This document shows, piece by piece, positions 13,180 through 60,262 of a stretch of DNA of 64,000 bases (position 1 is the first letter of the stretch; every line of letters begins with the position of its first letter). Location of the stretch: assembly GCF_009177095.1 (NCBI RefSeq), contig NZ_AP021861.1, forward strand, positions 1,240,001 through 1,304,000, written 5' to 3'. The translations under genes were made by a program, and so were the position numbers. This DNA comes from Lacipirellula parvula (GTDB lineage: Bacteria > Planctomycetota > Planctomycetia > Pirellulales > Lacipirellulaceae). Below the pieces are notes generated by a model. That model was not told the origin of the DNA. It was given only the letters and a program-made list of their open reading frames with translations, and did no database searches.

Positions 13180-13207
13180 TTAGCCCCCGGTTCTTCAAAC
13201 CGGGGGC
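13180..13207. repeat. REP-like palindrome, GGTTCTTCAAACC family
   Basis: A TTAG foot is followed by a hairpin whose arms CCCCCGGTT and AACCGGGGG close on a CTTC-type loop. Close copies occur at 25015, 25076 (inverted), 50399, 50437 and 55647. Confidence 0.85.
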
Positions 13208-17549: not shown

Positions 17550-17736
17550 GGCGGGCGTTCCTGAAAACGGGGAGGCGGAGACGAATCGTCGGCCGACAGC
17601 TATTGTATCGGCGCCGGCCGAACGGGTCACGCTGAACCGCTCGTCCTGGGCGCCATTTGAGGGGTAAACTGTTAACGGCGGCGGATTCTGGCGGTTTAGT
17701 GGTTGAGACGCTGGGACTATGCTGTTTTCGCCCGTC

Positions 17737-17765
17737 GCTCCGGCGGGTCGTTGACCCGCGGCTAC
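17737..17765. repeat. REP-like palindrome, GCTCAACGAGC-type family
   Basis: The hairpin arms GGCGGGTC and GACCCGC enclose GTT and are followed by the GTAG foot read on the minus strand. Related copies lie at 41452, 60019 and 63343. Confidence 0.75.
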
Positions 17766-24978: not shown

Positions 24979-25014
24979 GTGCGCTGACGCGACCACGCAA
25001 CATCACGCCCATTT

Positions 25015-25105
25015 TAGCCCCCGGTTCTTCAAACCGGGGGCGATACGGCGTCCGGTACGCTTGCGCGACATCGCACACCCCCGGTTTGAAGAACCGGGGG
25101 CTAAA
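25015..25105. repeat. BIME-like inverted pair of GGTTCTTCAAACC REPs
   Basis: One REP (25015-25042) and an inverted copy (25076-25105) face each other across about 33 bases. Both carry the TTAG/CTAA foot on the outer side. Such head-to-head REP pairs are called BIMEs in other bacteria. Confidence 0.85.
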
Positions 25106-50363: not shown

Positions 50364-50550
50364 AGTCAGTTGTCAGTGGTCCGTTGTCAGTTGCGAAATT
50401 AGCCCCCGGTTCTTCAAACCGGGGGGTGAAGGGTGCACGGTTCTTCAAACCGGGGCAATCGACGTGCCCCAGCGAATTAGCATCTGAACATGCACCAGCA
50501 ATCCCCATCGCCAGCCACTGACCACTGACCACTGACAACGGACCACTGAC
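50364..50550. repeat. composite repeat: TGTCAG arms enclosing two REPs
   Basis: GTCAGTGGTCCGTTGTCAG (left, 50372-50390) and CTGACAACGGACCACTGAC (right, about 50532-50550) face each other. Between them lie REP copies at 50399-50427 and 50437-50457. It fills the gap between the sigma factor and the ArsR-SRPBCC pair. Confidence 0.8.
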
Positions 50551-54570: not shown

Positions 54571-54927
54571 ATGAGAACCACCAAGGGCTCAGCCCGTAAC
54601 AAGGCGAAGAATCGCCTCTTCAAGAAGACCAAGGGCTTTACCGGCGGACGCGGAACGCTCCTCCGCAGTGCCAAGGAAACGCTCGTCCGCGCCGAGGCGT
54701 ACGCCTTCCGCGATCGCCGCGTGAAGAAGCGTGAGTTCCGCAAGCTGTGGATCATCCGCATCAACGCCGCCGCCCGCGAGCGTGGTCTCCGCTACAGCGA
54801 GTTCATCGCCGGCCTGAAGAAGGCCCAGATCGACCTCGATCGCAAGACCCTGTCGGAAATCGCGATTGCCGATCCCGCTGCGTTCGATGCGATCGTGGCC
54901 AAGGCCCGCGAAGCGCTGTCGGCCTAA
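54571..54927 (+). CDS. rplT: 50S ribosomal protein L20
   Basis: A 118-residue protein of the large subunit that also regulates its own operon in several bacteria. The start is [20 protein letters not shown], then [17 protein letters not shown], and [20 protein letters not shown] is the conserved core. Between rpmI and rplT lies a small palindrome (GGTGACGCGTCACC) that might be part of a leader structure. Confidence 0.97.
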
Positions 54928-55070: not shown

Positions 55071-55094
55071 ATGGCCGTTAGGCTATCGTGTGCC

Positions 55095-56204
55095 ATGACG
55101 ACTTCTAACGTATCCGACGGTCTACGCGAGTTCTGCGCCTCGCTCGACGAGTTGAGCGCCGCCGCGCAACAAGCGTTCGCAGCAGTCGCCGATGCCGCTG
55201 CGCTCGAAGAGGCCCGCGTCGACTTCACCGGCGCCAAGGCGGGCAAGCTGAAAGCTGCGCAGCAAGGCCTCGGCAAGGTCGACAAGGCCGACAAGCCAGC
55301 CGCCGGTAAGAAGTTCAACGAGGCGAAGGCCGCCGTGGAGGCCGCGCTCGAAGCGGCTAGAGTGCGCATCCATACGGTCGACATATCGGGAGTCTCGTCT
55401 ACCCTCACCGGTGCTTTAGCATCATTCGATCCCACTCAGCCCGGCCGACCGTTCCGCTTGGGCCACCTTCATCCGGTGACGCAAACGATCGCCGACATGA
55501 AGGACATCATGGGCCGCCTCGGCTTCACCGCCGTCGAGGGCCCCGAGATCGAAGACGAGTGGCACAACTTCGAAGCCCTCAACATCCCCGCGATCCACCC
55601 CGCGAGAGATCCCCTCGATAACTTCTACCTGGCGACAGCAACTGCATTAGCCCCCGGTTCTTCAAACCGGGTGCCAGGCCCCGCCGCTGGAGCAGCGCCA
55701 GAAAAACCGCTCCTCCTCCGCAGCCAAACCAGCACCGTCCAAATCCGCGTCATGGAGAGCACCCCGCCACCCGTGCGGATCATCTCCCTCGGCCGCGTCT
55801 ATCGCCCCGATACGGCCGACGCCACGCACTACCCGATGTTCCACCAGATCGAAGGTCTGCTGGTCGATCGCGGCGTGACGATGGCCGACCTGAAGAGCGT
55901 CCTCCGCCTCTTCTGCCAAAGCTACTTCGGCAAAGACGAGGTGCACATCCGTTTCCGCCCGTCGTTCTTCCCGTTCACCGAGCCGAGCGTCGAAGTCGAC
56001 ATGAACTGGCAGGGAGGCTGGATGGAAATGGGCGGCGCCGGCATGGTCGACCCCAACGTCCTGCGAGCCGTCGGCTACGACCCCGAAGAGGTCACCGGCT
56101 TCGCCTTCGGCCTGGGCGTCGAACGCGTCTGCATGCGGCAACACGGCATCACCGACATCCGCGCGTTGTACGAAAACGACGTGCGGTTTTTATCGCAGTT
56201 CTAA
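55095..56204 (+). CDS. pheS: phenylalanyl-tRNA synthetase alpha subunit with in-frame repeat insertion
   Basis: PheS is the catalytic alpha subunit of the alpha2-beta2 enzyme. The 369-residue protein has a helical N-terminus and the core segments [50 protein letters not shown] and [13 protein letters not shown]. Between FYL and [15 protein letters not shown] is an extra part of about 26 residues (180-205; 55632-55709). It includes [10 protein letters not shown], which is the translation of a REP copy (55647-55674). Most PheS proteins run almost straight from one to the other. The frame remains open, so the enzyme is probably active. pheT follows. Confidence 0.95.
55647..55674. repeat. REP copy inside the pheS coding frame
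   Basis: TTAGCCCCCGGTT, then CTTCAAACCGGG, matches the intergenic copies at 13180 and 25015. The frame used yields [10 protein letters not shown]. Confidence 0.88.
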
Positions 56205-56211
56205 ATGCATG

Positions 56212-56277
56212 TCTCACGCAAAGGCGCAAAGGCGCTAAGTGAGCTGACTTCAAATTCCTTCGCGCCTTTGCGTGAGA
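56212..56277. repeat. inverted repeat of TCTCACGCAAAGGCGC type
   Basis: TCTCACGCAAAGGCGC is mirrored by GCGCCTTTGCGTGAGA, perfect over 16 bases, with an extra AAAGGCGC unit on the left. It fills most of the pheS-pheT gap and could form a strong hairpin in the transcript. Confidence 0.85.
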
Positions 56278-56287
56278 TCTTTTTCCC

Positions 56288-58297
56288 ATGATCGTTTCAC
56301 TCGATTGGCTAAGAGACTACGTCGCTATCACGATGCCGTCGGCTGAACTAGCCGATCGCTTCGCTCTCTCCGGCCTCAACTTCGAGAGCGCGAGCGACGA
56401 AGCGATCGACCTTGAAGTCACCAGCAATCGCCCCGATTGCCTCGGCCACATCGGCGTCGCCCGCGAAGTCGGCGTCCTCTACGACCTGCCGATCGCGATC
56501 CCCGCCGCCACGGTCGCTGCGAAGGGCCCGAAGATAGACACTCTCACCAGCGTGACGATCGAAGCCCCCGAGCTGTGCCCCCGCTACACCGCCCGCCTCA
56601 TCCGCGGCGTGAAGATCGGCCCCAGCCCGGCGTGGCTCGCCGATCGCCTCCGCACGCTCGGCATCGCGGTGATCAACAACGTCGTCGACGTCACCAACTA
56701 CGTGATGTTCGAGTGCGGCCAGCCGCTCCATGCGTTTGACTTTGCGAAGCTCTCCGGCGGCAAGATCATCGTCCGCGCCGCGAAGCCGGGCGAGAAGTTC
56801 CAAGCGATCAACCATCAGGAATACGAACTCGCCGCGGACACGTGCGTTATCGCCGACGCGAAGCGGCCCGTCGCCGTCGCCGGCGTGATGGGGGGCGTCG
56901 ATAGCGAAGTGACCGACGCCACGGTCGACGTGCTTATCGAATCGGCCGCGTTCGCCCCGCTTTCGGTGCGCACCACCGCGCGGCGTCACCATCTCCACAG
57001 CCCGTCGTCGTACCGGTTTGAGCGCAGCGTCGACCTCGCCGGCCTCGATTGGGCGAGCCGTCGCGCCTGCGAGCTGATCCTCCAAACCGCCGGCGGCACG
57101 CTGGCCGAGGGAGTGATCGACGTCGGCCCCGCCGTGACGCCGAAAGAACGCGAAGTGGTGAAGCTCCGTTGGGCCCAACTCCCGCGCGTCCTCGGCATCG
57201 AAGTCCCTGTCGTCACGGTGCAAAAGATTCTCACCGCTCTCGGCTGCGAAGAGACGCACATTTGCGATCACTGCATCAAGGTGCTGCCGCCGAGCTGGCG
57301 GGCCGATCTCACCCGCGAGATTGACCTCATCGAAGAAGTCGCCCGTATTTACGGCTACGACCAGATCCCCGAAGACAGCAATGTGAAGATGGCCGCGTCG
57401 ACCCGCACGCGGCTCGATCGCGTGCTCGACCGCGTTCGCGCGACGCTCACCGCGGCCGGTTTCGACGAAGCGATGACGCTGAGCGCCGTCGACGAAACGC
57501 TCGTCGATGCGATTCAGCCCTGGTCGGATGAGGCGCCGCTCCGTGCGTCGACTGCCGTGCTCCGCCGCGCCGATTGCCTGCGACAAACGCTCGTGCCGAG
57601 CTTGCTCACGGCTCGTCGCCACAACGAAAAGCTCTCGAACCCCACGATCGAGCTGTTCGAAATCGCCAACGTCTACCTGCCGATCGCCGGCGAAATCCCG
57701 CAGCAGAAGCGCTTGCTTGCCATCACCAGCGGCGGCGGTTTTCTGGAGTTGAAGGGCATTCTCGAAGCCCTCGTCGCCCGCATCGCACCGTCGCAAGAAC
57801 TGCAGGTCGGCGAGGTCGACTACCCGTTGCTCGACGACGCCCGCCAGTGCCGCTTGCGGCTCGGCGAGCACACGCTCGGCTACCTCGGCGAACTGTCGAA
57901 GGCGGGCCGCGAGCGGTTCGAACTTCGCGGCGGCTCGACGGTCGCCGAGATCGACGTCGAAATTCTCATCGCGGCCGCGGAGCTCGCCCCCACCGCCGTG
58001 CCGCTGTCGCAGTACCCGCCGGTCAGCCGCGACGTGAACATCGTCGTCAACGAAACGATTCGCTGGTCGGAAGTCGAGCGGCTCGTCCGCACCGCGGGCG
58101 GCGATCTGATCGAGTCGGTACAATTTCAGGAAACGTACCGCGACGCCCAGCGGCTTGGCGCCGGCAAGAAGAGCCTCCTCTTCAGCCTGCAACTCCGCTC
58201 GGCCACGGCGACGCTGACCAACGAAGAGGCCGACGCCGTGCGGGCACGCATCGTTGAAATCCTCTCGCAGCAAGTCGGCGGCGAACTGCGGGCGTAA
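56288..58297 (+). CDS. pheT: phenylalanyl-tRNA synthetase beta subunit, short form
   Basis: The beta subunit carries tRNA binding and editing. The 669-residue product is about 120 residues shorter than the usual bacterial form of near 800. The start MIVSLDWLRDYV and SGLNFES passes almost directly to LEVTSNRPDCLGHIGVAREV, so the tRNA-binding (EMAPII-type OB) domain usually found between about residues 40 and 150 is absent. The B3/B4 editing part (VINNVVDVTNYVMFECGQPL), the B5 part and a C-terminal anticodon-binding-like part (YPPVSRDVNIVV) are present. No frameshift is needed, so the short form looks native. Confidence 0.95.
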   Translation: MIVSLDWLRDYVAITMPSAELADRFALSGLNFESASDEAIDLEVTSNRPDCLGHIGVAREVGVLYDLPIAIPAATVAAKGPKIDTLTSVTIEAPELCPRYTARLIRGVKIGPSPAWLADRLRTLGIAVINNVVDVTNYVMFECGQPLHAFDFAKLSGGKIIVRAAKPGEKFQAINHQEYELAADTCVIADAKRPVAVAGVMGGVDSEVTDATVDVLIESAAFAPLSVRTTARRHHLHSPSSYRFERSVDLAGLDWASRRACELILQTAGGTLAEGVIDVGPAVTPKEREVVKLRWAQLPRVLGIEVPVVTVQKILTALGCEETHICDHCIKVLPPSWRADLTREIDLIEEVARIYGYDQIPEDSNVKMAASTRTRLDRVLDRVRATLTAAGFDEAMTLSAVDETLVDAIQPWSDEAPLRASTAVLRRADCLRQTLVPSLLTARRHNEKLSNPTIELFEIANVYLPIAGEIPQQKRLLAITSGGGFLELKGILEALVARIAPSQELQVGEVDYPLLDDARQCRLRLGEHTLGYLGELSKAGRERFELRGGSTVAEIDVEILIAAAELAPTAVPLSQYPPVSRDVNIVVNETIRWSEVERLVRTAGGDLIESVQFQETYRDAQRLGAGKKSLLFSLQLRSATATLTNEEADAVRARIVEILSQQVGGELRA

Positions 58298-60018: not shown

Positions 60019-60046
60019 AGCCGCGGGTCAACGACCCGCCGGAGCG
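60019..60046. repeat. REP-like palindrome, GGTCAACGACC family
   Basis: CCGCGGGTC and GACCCGCCGG flank AAC. The foot reads GCAG rather than GTAG, the only deviation in the four copies. Confidence 0.7.
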
Positions 60047-60262
60047 TGGCGCCGAGCGATTTAGCCCCTCCCGCCCCTCGCCCGGTATAATTCCCACCAT
60101 CTGCTAGCAGGGCAGGGGAGCTCTCCGTTTCAAGTTTCCCCGAATCGCCCCCACCGGCTATATTGCGACGCCCTCGGCGAACCACCTGCAAGACCCCATC
60201 GCCCAATTCTCGCTCCGAAGCGTAAATCGCGGGCTGCATTCCATACTGAAATTTCTCCGTAG

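Follow-up and report, generated by a model that had tools for sequence, protein, structure and literature searches.

Results

The pheS locus and its in-frame repeat

The window, by which we mean the whole 64,000-nucleotide stretch of DNA that was analysed, belongs to the 6.92-Mb chromosome of the planctomycete Lacipirellula parvula and contains the genes rplT, pheS and pheT in this order. The features at the locus are:

54571-54927: rplT (TIGR01032), first of the three genes
55071..56204, + strand: pheS, phenylalanine--tRNA ligase alpha subunit (ORF; TIGR00468)
55632..55715, + strand: length-variable PheS loop between FYL and LRSQTS, 28 codons
55647..55674, + strand: copy of the repeat REP A, in frame in pheS (55647-55671 exact; 55672-55674 TGC vs GGC)
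56288-58297: pheT (TIGR00472), last of the three genes

The PheS alpha subunit is an essential enzyme. Its gene comprises 377 codons if the first ATG is taken as the start, with another ATG at 55095, and the protein scores 308.8 bits against TIGR00468, above the equivalog cut-off of 237.45, as the sole match in its own genome. Its closest relatives are the PheS of the metagenome-assembled "Pirellula sp. PB1.3.31" (G003) and that of Lacipirellula limnantheis I41, an isolate (G001); both genomes fall within Lacipirellula, the genus of the window. The residues flanking the loop presumably line the active site, from which the loop tip would point away. The AlphaFold model exhibits pLDDT values <50 at 159-201, conserved motifs included, and is therefore uninformative on the loop, while its Foldseek matches merely confirm the identity of PheS.

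Positions 55647-55671 (TTAGCCCCCGGTTCTTCAAACCGGG, encoding LAPGSSNR) represent 25 exact nt of a dispersed REP consisting of TTAG and a hairpin; for an exact 25-mer in a gene of the size and base composition of pheS, the chance expectation is ~3e-12. The first-pass annotation had placed a REP copy at 55647-55674, and this holds: the longer stretch differs from the repeat at one base (TGC vs GGC), translates into the same 10 residues as given there, and constitutes a dispersed palindrome in frame in PheS with the flanking motifs intact. When compared with G003, one stem base of the window copy is changed and a stem pair is lost.

As a separate observation, the gap between pheS and pheT (56204-56287) contains an inverted repeat with the arms TCTCACGCAAAGGCGC and GCGCCTTTGCGTGAGA; the 14-nt motif TCACGCAAAGGCGC (<=2 mismatches) occurs within the window solely at these two arms.

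REP A in its own genome

The REP A unit is 28 nt long and asymmetric; in most copies one of the two hairpin feet carries TTAG rather than the GTAG/CGTC tag. As a palindrome of 20-40 bp present in many copies it conforms to the definition of a REP. Five exact copies of the 21-nt core are present in the window. Those outside pheS are listed here, together with two copies of a second repeat, REP B, whose family fills the pheS loop of L. limnantheis:

13180..13207, + strand: REP A copy, outside ORFs >=90 aa
25014..25041, + strand: REP A copy, first of an inverted pair, covering 135-aa ORF without Pfam match
25077..25104, - strand: REP A copy, second of the inverted pair
50399..50426, + strand: REP A copy, inside a 114-aa ORF of the opposite strand
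17735..17763, - strand: REP B copy, 3 mismatches (0 in 100 shuffles)
60019..60047, + strand: REP B copy

REP A copies often form inverted pairs ~40-190 bp apart, resembling BIMEs or REPINs (window 25014-25104; loci L158, L159, L163, L167, L168 and L188).

A whole-genome BLAST search with the loop region yielded at least 48 matches besides itself, with the best 40 of 104 candidates scored. A REP pattern matched 64 times on the forward and 65 times on the reverse strand of the genome, and since the pattern is palindromic most places are counted twice in these figures. We located 70 REP A places with <=4 mismatches (in 39 stretches of the own genome plus the window), 45 of which fall in some ORF >=90 aa, as may be expected in a G+C-rich genome with many chance ORFs. 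Pfam searches with 30 REP-covering ORFs other than pheS gave no match for 27 and a domain for three, and in none of the 30 was a recognised gene with an interior REP proven: in all three domain-bearing ORFs the REP lies N-terminal to the domain (REP at 61-69 and domain from 86; 26-48 and from 75; 25-33 and from 52), so that the ORF starts are probably over-long. Hence, pheS is the only recognised gene with REP A in its interior among the covering ORFs scanned, that is, those of at least about 135 aa. In G014, where 22 REP copies in 20 stretches were taken from the best of 68 matches, 21 of the 22 lie outside ORFs >=100 aa and the remaining ORF has no Pfam match. REPs of this type are thus mostly intergenic, clearly so in G014 and less clear-cut in the own genome.

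The PheS loop in relatives and in solved structures

All of 110 PheS loci have an open, in-frame loop of 7-47 aa; the script that read the loops accepts stop-free ones only, and none of the 110 loci was missing. With 6 more loci added and duplicates merged, 93 distinct PheS of Pirellulales were obtained, with a median loop length of 16 aa (range 7-47) and 29 loops of >=20 aa. Between FY(L/W) and LLRxxTS, the Thermus (1b70, 2akw) and E. coli (3pco) structures have a loop of variable length at the same position: Thermus PheS has 20 residues there, and E. coli PheS lacks a counterpart for 23 query residues (191-213), leaving a loop of ~5. Since length varies both among Pirellulales and in the solved structures, we regard this element as an old, length-variable loop between conserved motifs.

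This places the first-pass annotation in a different light. Its "about 26 extra residues" are indeed extra when compared with short-loop forms, but 58 of 90 distinct loops in relatives already have 7-17 residues, and the REP proper therefore accounts for only ~9-10 of the 28 residues. Likewise, the REP is in frame as claimed, but it was not absorbed into a tight FYL-LLR junction, as the loop was already there and variable in length. Comparison with relatives, which the annotation had proposed, shows that most of those read are devoid of this REP and have other loop DNA instead.

Readable loops were obtained for 36 of 43 family genomes, the other seven falling outside the loop counts: G005 and G027 yielded no PheS match, and G032, G033, G034, G037 and G038 have only divergent PheS, in ORFs of 525-597 aa that match the window PheS at best E 1e-26 to 6e-38; this points to another type of PheRS in these genomes. 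Alignment A1 comprises 32 of 34 rows, leaving out L055 (stop codon in the named stretch) and L063. Two single observations may be added. The 41-aa loop of L122 includes SDFYRATAEARAGAPLL, which resembles a second FY(x)ATA-type motif, as though the loop had been partly duplicated. The short loops of L017 (TTAG) and L023 (CTAG) carry these bases at the very codon where REP A starts in the window, and the tetranucleotides, seen in one clade, could represent an empty target site.

Own-genome repeats in the loop

Loop DNA was searched against the own genome in a total of 33 genomes chosen for long or hairpin-bearing loops; 60 of the 93 distinct PheS lie outside this sample. The searches covered 30 genomes, 21 of these again with fewer competing loops, six once more, and then G014, G042 and G015; G013 is the same record as G054 and was counted once, and L062 lies outside the own-genome search. 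A genome was called positive if two or more further places in it were matched by its own loop at E <7.7e-4, the value of the best match with a reversed query. At least 13 of the 33 genomes are positive: the window genome, G003, G001, G002, G031, G016, G039, G012 (Botrimarina colliarenosi), G028, G046, G048, G050 and G014. As the loops had been picked for being long or hairpin-bearing, 13 of 33 represents no prevalence. For the other 20 (G004, G030, G017, G040, G008, G041, G036, G035, G022, G043, G044, G045, G047, G049, G051, G052, G053, G054, G042 and G015) there was no qualifying own-genome repeat among the matches listed; with the best 10-40 candidates per genome scored, these negatives are soft. 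G004 gave weak loop matches only, at E 0.005 and above.

The reversed-query control, which covers the 21-genome round, returned 27 matches in 15 of the 21 genomes, the best at E 7.7e-4 and none lower. The forward query of the same round gave 156 matches among those listed, including 21 self-matches; many of the 135 non-self matches represent the loop of one species in the genome of another, and matches at E 0.01-0.05 are no better than those of the reversed control. Copies read out for the loops of ten other genomes match element to element, and the L103 and L032 loops contain near-complete elements of ~90-100 bp. Using start motifs chosen by the analyst, the element starts 10-18 nt into the loop in 10 of the 13 positives and 30-42 nt into it in three. 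Outside this set, the pheS loop of L106 has a strong hairpin on GGAATTCTGC (z -3.4), with no other copy among the own-genome matches listed.

The repeats in the positive loops, as read from these copies and from the pheS loop and repeat copies of G014, are:

Family A: TTAG-CCCCCGGTTCTTCAAACCGGGGGC; window and G003
Family B: AGCCGCCGGTCAACGACCGGCCGGAGCGG, some copies with a GTAG foot; G001
Family C: GCCCCGACCAAGCTTGGTCGGGGCTAGC; G002
Family D: CCCCCGGTGAATCACCGGGGGCTAA as in pheS; G031
Family D2: TTAGCCCCTGGTGAGTCACCGGGGGCTAA as in pheS; G014
Family E: ACTGGTCGCTGAAGCGACCAGTCCG; G016
Family H: CCCGCCCGCTGAAGCGGGCTCGCCGGGG; G028
Family F: ~100-bp inverted element with GAGGGGCGA-like units; G039
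Family G: AGCGAGCCGNGTCGTCCTCGACC; G012
Family I: tandem CCACGCC units; G046
Family J: ~92-bp palindromic element CTCCCCTCTCCC...GGGAGAGGGG, almost end to end; G048
Family K: GAACCCC units facing GGGTTCA units; G050

If A, D and D2 are counted together as a TTAG type and E is joined to H by their shared CGCTGAAGCG core, at least nine repeat families that look unrelated by sequence occupy the PheS loop. F, I and K are partly tandem and could have grown in place by slippage. The single REP uptake envisaged by the first-pass annotation is thus real for pheS of the window, but it is one case among own-genome repeats of many families in the same loop.

The annotation had also held that the same insert with unrelated DNA in all relatives would mean an old loop and a REP likeness by chance. 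Half of this is what we find: the loop is old, as the 20 residues of Thermus PheS at the same place attest, and most relatives have other DNA there. That the resemblance arose by chance is nevertheless barely credible, considering the 25 exact nt of a dispersed repeat with the minute expectation given above, the 12 other genomes with own repeats in the loop, and a reversed control with one match at E 7.7e-4 and none lower. For the 25-nt core, chance likeness is refuted by the own-genome BLAST search, the reversed control and that expectation, and the unrelated loop DNA in the positive relatives itself consists of dispersed repeats.

Distribution of the repeats on the PheS tree

In a tree of the 93 PheS proteins calculated with the loop removed, different repeats are found in close relatives. 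Within Lacipirellula, the window and G003 hold family A, the neighbouring G001 holds B and the congener G002 holds C. Two sisters of one other genus, G012 and G014, hold G and D2, respectively, while the loops of G015 and of B. hoheduenensis showed no own-genome repeat. The sisters L096 (I) and L103 (J) likewise differ in their loop repeat, and G016 (E) is paired with G017 (none found among the matches listed), with G028 (H) outside the pair. No empty site was found in a strain of the same species, and the polarity of insertion therefore rests on the tree.

One may ask whether a single ancient REP inserted in the family ancestor and later diverged or was lost. The TTAG type offers some grounds for this: the peptides of L014 (G031; LTPGESPGAK) and L248 (G014; LAPGESPGAK) are nearly identical and in the same frame in different genera, with four of five codon differences synonymous, REP A is common to the window genome (G000) and G003, and the loops of L249 (G042) and L018 (G030) resemble decayed copies, though neither matched own-genome repeats. 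Families B, C, E/H, F, G, I, J and K, however, are unlike the TTAG REP and each match repeats of their own genome, and sister species carry different repeats, so that we consider one ancestral insertion improbable as a general account. For the TTAG type taken by itself, the peptide and codon comparison would leave an older shared insertion open.

Reading frame and RNA hairpins

In G014, the common REP copies are interrupted by stops in all three forward frames, whereas the copy in pheS can be read through in the frame of the gene. Under random frame and orientation, the chance that all 13 loops have an open frame would be ~5e-4, a rough value that includes loop flanks and the related window and G003 loops. 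The same observations bear on the idea that the insert is absent from the protein, either because ribosomes jump over it or because it is taken out. Hairpins do feature in known cases of ribosomal bypassing; but with the loop in frame and stop-free at 110 of 110 loci, and with the G014 copy open exactly where common copies contain stops, we give this idea hardly any credence.

The 13 positive loops fold far better than same-gene controls (mean z -2.71 vs -0.45, p 6.5e-5), while the 80 other loops are not clearly above pheS control stretches (mean z -0.32 vs -0.13, p 0.10). The hairpin thus arrives as part of the repeat and is no general trait of the loop; a conserved RNA hairpin function in all loops is unsupported. 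A more restricted proposal is that a hairpin in pheS mRNA is selected, for example for ribosome pausing before the catalytic core folds, with the repeats serving as a mere source of hairpins. The strong folding of the positive loops would fit, as would the related G016, G017 and G028, whose hairpins occupy one position but are built from different arms (z -3.1, -1.6 and -1.5). With the 80 other loops at about control level and the window copy having lost a stem pair, selection of this kind appears very improbable.

A transposase-like gene linked to the REPs

On contig 2 of G003 (locus L236), two neighbouring genes are accompanied by five REP A copies. The first encodes a Y1/RAYT-type protein of 215 aa (PF01797, Y1_Tnp, 42.6 bits; NF047646, 72.1 bits, below the cut-off of 80). 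The second, an ORF of 172 aa, is bounded by a REP on either side. A 76% identical copy in the own genome (G000:C1:1819469-1819963; L168, L241) has REPs on both sides and contains one internal TGA, which the G003 copy does not have, and may thus be inactive now. A 57% identical homologue in G042 (G042:C1:1581377-1581877) is located between two TTAG-type REPs. A REP-flanked 172-aa gene is therefore found in G003, G000 and G042, and matches to the protein at E 1e-5 or better occur in 16 of the 43 family genomes.

The 172-aa protein gave no Pfam match (Y1_Tnp included) and no NCBIfam match. In alignment A3, comprising 11 of 20 homologue matches, H90, H92, K110 and Y145 are invariant, providing HxH, K and Y residues. 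Its model (pLDDT 80.7) matches 2a6m, 2xm3 and 4er8 in Foldseek at E 3e-4 to 8e-4 (prob 0.99-1.00), which are transposases of IS608 and ISDra2 and, for 4er8, the REP transposase of E. coli; the TM-scores are modest (0.32-0.46 by query length, best 16) and the r.m.s.d. is high. With its HxH and Tyr residues and a predicted Y1 fold, the protein is probably a transposase-like member of the HUH/Y1 type. The own genome contains four PF01797 genes; the three examined have no REP-like site nearby, and the transposase link therefore rests on the 172-aa gene.

Discussion

Our findings make it probable that the pheS insert is a captured genomic repeat, and that the loop is a permissive landing site for neutral translated insertions. 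A tagged REP (TTAG plus hairpin), belonging to a family linked to an HUH/Y1 RAYT-like transposase, would have been copied into a tolerant turn of the PheS catalytic domain, and would have survived there because it entered in a stop-free frame and as a whole number of codons. In the same loop of other Pirellulales, unrelated dispersed repeats would have been gained, eroded and replaced. For the REP types, the likeliest route is that a transposase moved the repeat, although ectopic recombination or gene conversion fits too. The insert itself is presumably neutral, and neutral tolerance of the survivors is the simplest account. It is also conceivable, but in our view unlikely, that the loop is a preferred or useful target which is refilled via repeat-linked transposases, or through selection favouring variability close to the aminoacylation site; an essential enzyme would then be re-coded continually by any palindromes present in its genome.

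Taken as a permissive landing site, the PheS loop offers an experiment, repeated many times by nature, on the conversion of selfish or dispersed repeats into protein. PheS is easily assayed and sister species differ by the repeat at one site, so that one can measure how old new coding sequence is, which frame it uses, and how it is tolerated and replaced. A PheRS site that accepts long inserts is now marked, and it is a warning that "extragenic" repeats can be translated.

Rickettsia palindromic elements (RPEs) are the best-known in-frame insertions, and the first-pass annotation was right to name palindromes of Rickettsia as comparable. According to the portion of PMC10969869 drawn on here, RPEs lie in frame in conserved protein genes, measure about 150 bp and occur in many unrelated genes. 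The pheS case shares the in-frame insertion in a conserved gene. It differs in that a 28-bp REP lies inside one recognised gene, and in that what recurs is the site and not the element. As regards spread over many genes, the scan covers REP A in ORFs of at least about 135 aa, and among these pheS is the one recognised gene with the repeat in its interior.

REPs of the GTAG/CGTC superfamily are described in the relevant part of Di Nocera et al. (2013; PMC3733652) as short tagged palindromes that are mostly intergenic and sometimes intragenic; intragenic cases include tRNA synthetases of three species, and recB of two Xanthomonas species carries different REPs at about the same site. When compared with these, the pheS case, as far as that part of the paper goes, is distinguished by (i) the TTAG tag in the window, (ii) its location in pheS of Pirellulales, and (iii) at least nine unrelated families in one loop across many genera. 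The view of the first-pass annotation that nothing of the kind had been described in this group is thus to be restricted: open-access literature yielded no match for PheRS insertions in planctomycetes, but intragenic REPs, tRNA synthetases included, are in print. Nor did the open-access literature, with subscription journals mostly outside the search, yield any description of pheS containing repeats, or of many families occupying a single loop.

In REPtrons, as presented in the section of Quentin et al. (2018; PMC6006769) used here, REPs, some of them inverted, flank an HUH/Y1 transposase gene and have a tetranucleotide 5' of the hairpin; class 3 has a CnGA foot and Planctomycetes among its hosts. 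The REP-flanked HUH/Y1-like gene and the tetranucleotide tag found here are similar. In contrast, the 172-aa gene is without a match in Pfam and NCBIfam, and TTAG takes the place of GT[AG]G as the tag, a comparison that covers the classes other than class 3.

Finally, the PheS loops of Thermus and E. coli vary in length at the same position, whereas a genomic repeat makes up the loop DNA of 13 Pirellulales genomes. In-frame palindromes in proteins, be they Rickettsia RPEs or intragenic REPs, were hence known already; what is new is that many unrelated families have been captured, time and again, at a single site in a single essential protein.
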